Assembly (NCBI RefSeq): GCF_002907375.1 | Contig: NZ_MIYK01000016.1 | Coordinates: forward strand, 1-64,000 | DNA from: Fructilactobacillus lindneri DSM 20690 = JCM 11027 | GTDB taxonomy: Bacteria; Bacillota; Bacilli; Lactobacillales; Lactobacillaceae | Length of the DNA stretch: 64,000 nt | Direction of reading: 5' to 3' | Shown: in pieces, positions 7,839 through 49,710 of the stretch | How the letters are laid out: each line of letters begins with the position of its first letter | Numbering within the stretch: the stretch's first letter is position 1 | Position numbers and translations under genes: made by a program | Notes under the pieces: generated by a model | Databases searched by the model: none | Seen by the model: only the letters and a program-made list of their open reading frames with translations | Told to the model about the DNA's origin: nothing

Positions 7839-7965
7839 ATGAATTTTAACTAAATCTGATTAGGACAATGTTTTTAGCTATACAAAATTGCAATCTTGTC
7901 ACTTTTGCTGCTTAATCGCTATCGTTTTTACCACTAAGCAACATTGTTTGATACAATAAAGATAA

Positions 7966-8050
7966 TTAAATAGCTGGGGTGCCAATAACGGCTGAGATTA
8001 TACCCGTTGAACCTGATCTAGGTAATGCTAGCGTAGGTAATAAAGTGACA
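7966..8050 (+). ncRNA. TPP riboswitch (THI element) 1
   Basis: Contains the conserved pieces in order: GGGGTGCC (7976-7983), GGCTGAGA, ACCC, GAACCTGATCTAGGTAATGC and GCGTAGG. This is the thiamin pyrophosphate aptamer. A terminator stem follows 30 nt later, so TPP binding should stop transcription of the downstream ykoDC-pgpA unit. The P1 closing stem is weak by eye. Confidence 0.93.
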
Positions 8051-8079
8051 TTCAGTTGTCTAATTACAACAAAAAACTT

Positions 8080-11378: not shown

Positions 11379-11430
11379 AGAAAATCAATTTTAGAATTGT
11401 GAAAAACACAATCGTTAATTATCTAAATTG

Positions 11431-11506
11431 GATAAGTTTCCTGCGATAGCTTTAACTATATCAGGTTCAATGGGTTTAATCTCAGCTCGTGGCACCCCAA
11501 CTTAAT
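11431..11506 (-). ncRNA. TPP riboswitch (THI element) 2
   Basis: On the minus strand: GGGGTGCC (11498-11491), GCTGAGA, ACCC, TTGAACCTGATATAG and GCAGGAAACTT. The ends pair as ATTAAGTT/AACTTAT-type P1. It precedes ykoE, with a terminator 50 nt downstream. Confidence 0.92.
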
Positions 11507-11550
11507 ATTTTTATAACTTTATTATAACATACAAACAGGAGATAACAATC

Positions 11551-48771: not shown

Positions 48772-49224
48772 TCAACCGTTGAGTGGATAAACAACGTGAA
48801 AAGTTTCTAAAATCATTTTAGCGGCTTCTGGTTTAAAAAGTTGTCCCATCTCTTGATATTCCTTAACAAAAAAATCTTGATGAGCTTTTCTCCAGTAATT
48901 TAAAGTTCGGTCTCCCTCGCCTTCTTGGTAAGCATGCTCTTCACTAACATCTAGATAATTACAAATTTTCACATCGTCATTCATAATGATACAAACTGGA
49001 TCATCATTTCCATCTAAAATTACATCATATGCATTTTTAATAGGTAATGGTTCATCTGATTCATACAAGTCTAAGGCACTCGTAGTCGCAGTCTTAGTTC
49101 CAGTCAAAACCAAATGTGCTAATTTATCAGCTTCAACACCGTATTGATAACTAGCTTGTAGCTGGGCATCACTTGGAATTGCATGGGATGTTTTGGCTTG
49201 TTCAAAATACTCTAAAGGCGTCAT
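48772..49224 (-). CDS. ASCH domain protein
   Basis: A 150-residue protein with the ASCH fold: LVLTGTKTATTSALDLYESDEPLP (the GxKxxT core), VCIIMNDDVKICNYLDVSEEHAYQEGEGDRTLNYWRKAHQDFF. This is the YtfG/amidohydrolase-like ASCH group. Some ASCH proteins hydrolyse acetylcytidine or bind RNA; function here is unknown. It ends just upstream of the SMR gene on the same strand order (SMR first, 22-bp gap), so they may be co-transcribed. Confidence 0.85.
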   Translation of the reverse strand: MTPLEYFEQAKTSHAIPSDAQLQASYQYGVEADKLAHLVLTGTKTATTSALDLYESDEPLPIKNAYDVILDGNDDPVCIIMNDDVKICNYLDVSEEHAYQEGEGDRTLNYWRKAHQDFFVKEYQEMGQLFKPEAAKMILETFHVVYPLNG

Positions 49225-49246: not shown

Positions 49247-49567
49247 TTAGTGTCCTGCGGTCATCTTTATTCCAATAATACCAATAATTAGCAATGCAAT
49301 AAATACCCAAGTTATCATTGGAATTTGATCTTTGAAAAAAATTACTCCTACAAAAATAGAGCCAACCGCACCAATTCCCGTCCAAACTGGATAAGCAATA
49401 CTTAAAGGCAAATGTTTAACTGATAAGGCTAAAAATCCAAAACTTAATATCATTCCTAAAATAGTAGTAATACTAAAAAATAAATTCGTAAAACCATTGC
49501 TCAATTTCATCGTAGTCGCCCACACAACCTCAAATATTCCTGCAATTATTAAATAAATCCACGTCAT
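49247..49567 (-). CDS. SMR family exporter, Gdx/SugE-like (guanidinium or quaternary ammonium)
   Basis: About 106 residues, four helices. MTWIYLIIAGIFEVVWATTMKLSNGF has the active glutamate (about residue 13) and the W/A/K pattern of the Gdx (SugE) guanidinium exporters rather than EmrE, and AYPVWTGIGAVGSIFVGVIFFKD is the family's helix-3 segment. It works as a dual-topology dimer or with a partner; no second SMR gene is adjacent. ATG 49567 follows AAGGAG. A terminator-bearing leader precedes it. Confidence 0.88.
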   Translation of the reverse strand: MTWIYLIIAGIFEVVWATTMKLSNGFTNLFFSITTILGMILSFGFLALSVKHLPLSIAYPVWTGIGAVGSIFVGVIFFKDQIPMITWVFIALLIIGIIGIKMTAGH

Positions 49568-49588
49568 TTTATTTATTCTCCTTAAAAA

Positions 49589-49675
49589 AATAAAAGCACC
49601 TATAAAGTTCTTCATTGACCTAATGAACTTTATAAATGCTTTCTCGCCCGGTGGCGATTAATATTAAATTATTTT
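49589..49675 (-). ncRNA. Structured leader / candidate riboswitch of the SMR gene
   Basis: From the predicted start (~49675) the minus strand gives an AU stretch, then a compact GC hairpin CGCC-ACCG-GGCG (49656-49645) followed by GAGAAAGC, then a long terminator stem (AAAGCA..TATAAAGTTC / GAACTTTATA..TGCTTTT, 49642-49591) and a T7 run. GAGAAAGC overlaps the terminator's 5' arm, so ligand folding of the CCGGGCGAG core could block the terminator. Guanidine riboswitches control Gdx exporters; the core is reminiscent of small guanidine classes, but I cannot assign one. Confidence 0.6.
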
Positions 49676-49680
49676 AAATT

Positions 49681-49709
49681 GATATTACTAAATTAAAAGA
49701 TCAGTGTCA
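49681..49709 (-). promoter_or_regulatory. Promoter of the SMR gene
   Basis: TTGACA (49709-49704), 17-bp spacer, TAATAT (49686-49681) on the minus strand. Near-consensus; it places the transcript start about 107 nt before the SMR ATG. It lies immediately beyond the catalase stop. Confidence 0.82.
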
Positions 49710-49710
49710 A

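Follow-up and report, generated by a model that had tools for sequence, protein, structure and literature searches.

A leader upstream of a Gdx-type exporter gene in Fructilactobacillus lindneri is very probably a guanidine-IV riboswitch

The closest described systems to the element discussed here, a leader that precedes a gene for a small multidrug resistance (SMR) exporter in Fructilactobacillus lindneri DSM 20690 = JCM 11027, are the guanidine-IV riboswitches, for which the work of Salvail from 2020 is reportedly a further reference. The leader lies on the minus strand (49709..49568) of a stretch of 64,000 nt from contig NZ_MIYK01000016.1, called the window in the following, to which all coordinates refer, and it comprises a promoter, a first hairpin (P1), a terminator and a run of seven U, after which the Gdx-type SMR gene begins. 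Guanidine-IV, also known as the GGAM-1 or mepA motif (Lenkeit 2020, PMC7736828), is defined by a loop-loop pair that joins a 5' hairpin to a terminator hairpin (PMC7736828; PMC11611296; review PMC12186494). It is an ON switch, with an 80-fold effect in a reporter, and is thought to act through a kissing loop by which the terminator is strained at its base or kept from closing there (PMC7736828). SugE, MATE and PnuC have been named as its targets (PMC7736828), as has a GNAT protein of Lactobacillus curiae (PMC9788692), and B3/4 proteins (CtdA) are associated with it (PMC10018355). Mutagenesis in Lactococcus lactis names G62, G66, U67 and G72, to which probing adds U63 and A71; G66, U67 and G72 are essential, and G62 is less conserved (90%), the change G62C having lowered without abolishing response and binding (PMC7736828).

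Judging from its sequence and its relatives, the F. lindneri leader is in our view very probably a guanidine-IV riboswitch working as a transcriptional ON switch. Indeed, it consists of two hairpins, the 3' one being an intrinsic terminator with a U tract. P1 (UCGCC-ACCG-GGCGA; 49644..49657) has a stem of 5 bp, supported by both fold and covariation, and the loop ACCG; the terminator hairpin, P2 (49592..49643), has 19 bp in the predicted fold, also covaries, directly abuts P1 and is separated by a single A from the U7 tract (49584..49590). The loop of P2, AUUAGGUCAAUGAA (49611..49624), carries the conserved letters UAGGYC and a conserved G (49613). The ACC of the P1 loop (49652..49650) is complementary to the GGU of the P2 loop (49620..49618), and the pseudoknot that the two would form is backed by covariation between A-U and G-C. 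The downstream gene falls within the context that marks the class, that is sugE/SMR, MATE, PnuC, GNAT or B3/4. The folding energy of the leader is -31.4 kcal/mol, against -13.3 +/- 2.8 for shuffled sequences (z = -6.6), none of 200 shuffles being as good.

This kissing pair is the key element that was absent from the original prediction, in which an unassigned riboswitch-like leader had been described. The GC hairpin recognized there does exist, with a stem of 5 bp rather than the 4 bp then given. The two exclusive folds had been attributed to bases shared between GAGAAAGC and the 5' arm of the terminator; the overlap is real, yet no base of P1 belongs to the full terminator, and the two stand side by side, with a linker of 0 nt, in the minimum-energy fold. 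The exclusivity lies instead between the full terminator and the pair formed by the P1 loop and the terminator loop. The idea of a guanidine switch, possibly of class IV, has gained support from the architecture, the covarying RCC:GGY kissing pair, the GU....G loop residues, the gene associations and the Gdx-like protein encoded downstream.

The covariation that had been proposed as a check was found in homologous leaders for both stems and for the kissing pair. Among the SMR homologues collected from 151 Lactobacillaceae genomes and from GTDB genomes, 79 distinct leaders, mostly of Lactobacillaceae and also of Enterococcus, share the motif (P1 loop RCCG, terminator loop UAGGY), which is placed mostly 75-100 nt 5' of the start codon. 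The first kissing pair is A-U in 61 of them, G-C in nine and G-U in nine, and the combination A-C never occurs (Fisher p 2e-7, a value that ignores relatedness; the G-C cases belong to several genera). Alignment A2, of 32 leaders, has 93.2% of its cells paired, compared with 38-43% in slid controls, and double changes occur in 20 of its 24 pairs. A second alignment (A3), whose 54 leaders belong to other families and classes within the phylum and never to Lactobacillaceae, gave 96.1% paired cells, with covariation in P1 and P2; the cells of P1 are paired at 98.7% and 95.9% in the two alignments. The kissing pair in A3 is A-U in 41 leaders and G-C in the remaining 13, and the covariance model used to align them carries no pseudoknot. 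The letters UAGG are invariant in A3, and the G corresponding to 49613 is present in 53/54 leaders.

The leaders of A3 come from the matches of a motif model (R1) used for genome scans, which revealed the motif in 78/295 sampled Lactobacillales genomes, in 21/196 genomes of the Streptococcus family and in 20/398 genomes across the phylum, the F. lindneri genome of the window being included in the latter. A further model (R2), built solely from the 54 non-Lactobacillaceae leaders, scores 65.6 bits (E 6.2e-12) on the window, its sole match in the 1.44-Mb genome, and recovers 37/37 tested leaders of the SMR-homologue set and 0/10 negative loci. The genes lying downstream of the motif elsewhere encode SMR, MATE (PF01554), nicotinamide mononucleotide transporter/PnuC (PF04973), GNAT, B3/4-domain (PF03483), PNPOx-like and SfLAP proteins. 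As to the last two, the motif precedes PNPOx-like (pyridoxamine-phosphate-oxidase-like) genes at four loci (L195, L199, L201, L212) and SfLAP-like genes at two (L155, L158), and neither kind of gene was found named as a target in the guanidine-IV papers cited here. A separate observation concerns the SMR leaders of Liquorilactobacillus mali (L009, L036, L048), which have a terminator-like stretch with UUUAGGUUU and no recognisable P1, and which are possibly decayed riboswitches.

The comparison with L. lactis speaks for the assignment to guanidine-IV, against which some points nevertheless weigh. The correspondence with L. lactis was drawn through two Lactococcus-like leaders (L184/L185) that read CAGUAGGUCUGAG, in which G62, U63, G66, U67, A71 and G72 all fit and are followed by seven U, in agreement with the published description; their genomes are presumably those of L. 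lactis, the anchor being taken from the residue pattern by itself. On this numbering, the window equivalents of G66, U67 and G72 are G 49619, U 49618 and G 49613, whereas in the place of the less conserved G62, or adjacent to it, the window has A/U (CAUUAGG versus CAGUAGG in L. lactis), in a part that aligns with slack, the number of U being variable. Membership in the class is argued from homology and from residues named in published text. Moreover, the window gave no guanidine-IV match in Rfam 15, either at the gathering score or at E<=10. This missing match is uninformative, because clear members of the motif are also without one: 0/13 motif loci (L002, L007, L023, L031, L061, L078, L096, L148, L184, L185, L193, L197, L207) were matched as guanidine-IV, or to any other family, in Rfam 15. 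The search against the Rfam guanidine models that had been suggested as a check could therefore not decide the matter; the library appears not to cover guanidine-IV, and annotation based on it probably misses the class. Concerning G62, G is the majority letter at this position in the 54 non-Lactobacillaceae leaders, and A and other non-G letters are common. The SMR-linked members of Lactobacillaceae, many of which have no G there, might form a sub-variant of different affinity, or one responding to a guanidine derivative such as hydroxyguanidine from canavanine in place of free guanidine, an idea to which we assign a very low probability.

Other kinds of regulatory element share features with the leader. 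The guanidine-IV-variant (Gd4v) riboswitches, also found in Firmicutes, have the same overall two-hairpin pseudoknot with a terminator, but they respond to a different ligand, stand in a transaminase-type context and never before SMR genes, and are distinguished by an extra hairpin on the terminator and altered loop residues (PMC9788692). Since the window gene is an SMR gene, A2 and A3 show no covarying extra hairpin in the loop, and the equivalent of the essential G72 is retained, it is very unlikely that the leader belongs to this variant and senses something other than guanidine. We give equally little credit to a constitutive terminator or attenuator preceded by an accidental GC hairpin and sensing no ligand: the stable coexistence of P1 and terminator in the predicted fold would agree with it, but conservation and covariation in different classes of the phylum extend to P1, to the loop letters and to the pair between the loops, which would be unexpected for an accidental hairpin. 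The guanidine-IV riboswitch differs from guanidine-I (RF00442) in its aptamer, that of the latter being unrelated and much longer, although the ligand and the kind of target gene are the same. According to the literature, guanidine-I, -II and -III commonly precede SMR genes, and a real guanidine-I riboswitch is located before sugE on a Paraclostridium bifermentans plasmid (L111:623-725). However, while this control was found by Rfam at 9e-16, no match to the three classes appeared in the window even at E<=10, so that the probability of any of them is negligible; that classes I and II do not fit had already been noted in the original prediction.

The only sub-threshold Rfam match of the leader, to RF02430 (SpF19_sRNA; 35.9 bits, E 5.8e-5, gathering cut-off 60), raises the question of whether an antiterminator protein of the LicT/BglG type might bind a ribonucleic antiterminator (RAT) site here. 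The SpF19 consensus presumably resembles a RAT site, and an SpF19-like element (L166) precedes a gene of the phosphotransferase system (PTS). SpF19 and the leader both place a short GC hairpin ahead of a terminator, and the score of the match is weak; SpF19 differs in having no UAGGYC loop and no kissing pair, and its appearance is presumably that of a RAT antiterminator leader. A RAT site is extremely improbable in the window, considering that the score is far under the cut-off, that the RAT-like letters GGAUGUUA and GCAGGAACC of SpF19 are missing, that R2 does not detect L166 and L167, and that the regulated gene is an exporter. The converse idea of SpF19 as a mis-filed guanidine-IV riboswitch was considered and dropped, the match reflecting a generic hairpin plus terminator and the family being RAT-like. 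As for SpF19_sRNA itself, at L166:1450-1640 it resembles a LicT/BglG RAT leader before PTS genes and not a free small RNA.

The ligand, the ON direction and the steric mechanism of the guanidine-IV riboswitch proposed here would be those of the published members of the class, from which we infer them. RNA polymerase would start near 49675, with P1 as the first element made and the upper portion of P2 as the next, and the fold predicted along the growing transcript follows the same order, with P2 finally zipping down to P1. Without guanidine, P2 would close to its base against P1, and transcription would end at the 19-bp hairpin and U7, ahead of the exporter gene. Once guanidinium is bound, the ACC of the P1 loop and the GGU of the P2 loop would pair as a short kissing helix, the ligand being surrounded by the conserved UAGGYC...G residues, and this helix would strain or block the closure of the P2 base, allowing the polymerase to read through. 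The Gdx-type SMR protein would then be made and would export guanidinium in exchange for protons. The window has a linker of 0 nt between P1 and P2, and the relatives that keep P1 in the predicted fold (58/79) have one of 0-9 nt, which fits the view of a kissing loop hindering the terminator base.

The remaining parts of the leader agree with what had been predicted (a promoter TTGACA-17-TAATAT, a leader of ~107 nt and a terminator with T7), and all lie on the minus strand, which had not been stated. The sigma-70-type promoter (49682..49710; -35 TTGACA at 49710..49705, 17-nt spacer, -10 TAATAT at 49687..49682) has 10/12 consensus matches and is located directly 3' of the stop codon of the catalase gene (49711). 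Its pattern alone is not above chance (one found, shuffle mean 3.7); relatives have -10-like boxes at the same place. A transcription start near 49675 would give a leader of ~108 nt up to the ATG at 49567, preceded by the ribosome-binding site AAGGAG (49578..49583). The SMR gene (49247..49567, minus strand) encodes 106 aa (MTWIYLIIAGIFEVVWATT...; PF00893 1.4e-28); a longer open reading frame from 49615 begins inside the terminator, and 49615 is not likely to be the start codon. The best solved structures for the protein are the SMR-family entries 6wk5/8vxu (2e-30, versus 2e-11 for EmrE), which we take to be Gdx-Clo. The protein has all of E13, W16, S42, Y59 and W62, which are the functional residues in Gdx-Clo (PMC9574504), and its score with the NCBIfam SugE equivalog model, 94.6 bits, falls short of the cut-off (126). 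The structure matches and functional residues bear out the Gdx-type exporter that had been proposed downstream, and the product is probably a guanidinium exporter, not a quaternary-ammonium drug pump.

Downstream of the SMR gene by 22 bp, and possibly co-transcribed with it, is an ASCH-domain gene (48772..49224, minus strand; PF04266 9.7e-21), which was found next to none of the SMR genes at the other 109 loci; nor is the katA neighbourhood conserved in relatives. The SMR gene is missing in five congeneric genomes of the sample, and its closest relative is that of Leuconostoc fallax (82%; L002/L045), ahead of Apilactobacillus ozensis (77%; L031). Based on these two observations, we suggest that leader and gene (window 49247-49658) may have been acquired together by horizontal transfer. 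Elsewhere in the window, two thiamine pyrophosphate riboswitches score above the Rfam gathering score, at 7965-8056 on the plus strand and at 11421-11509 on the minus strand.

We can state with high confidence that the F. lindneri leader adds a member to a known class and leaves the understanding of guanidine-IV itself unchanged. What is gained is that a leader missed by automated Rfam annotation receives a ligand class and a mechanism, both at the strength argued above. A covariance model for guanidine-IV would, in turn, annotate many lactic acid bacteria, as the occurrence of the motif in 78 of the 295 Lactobacillales genomes sampled suggests.
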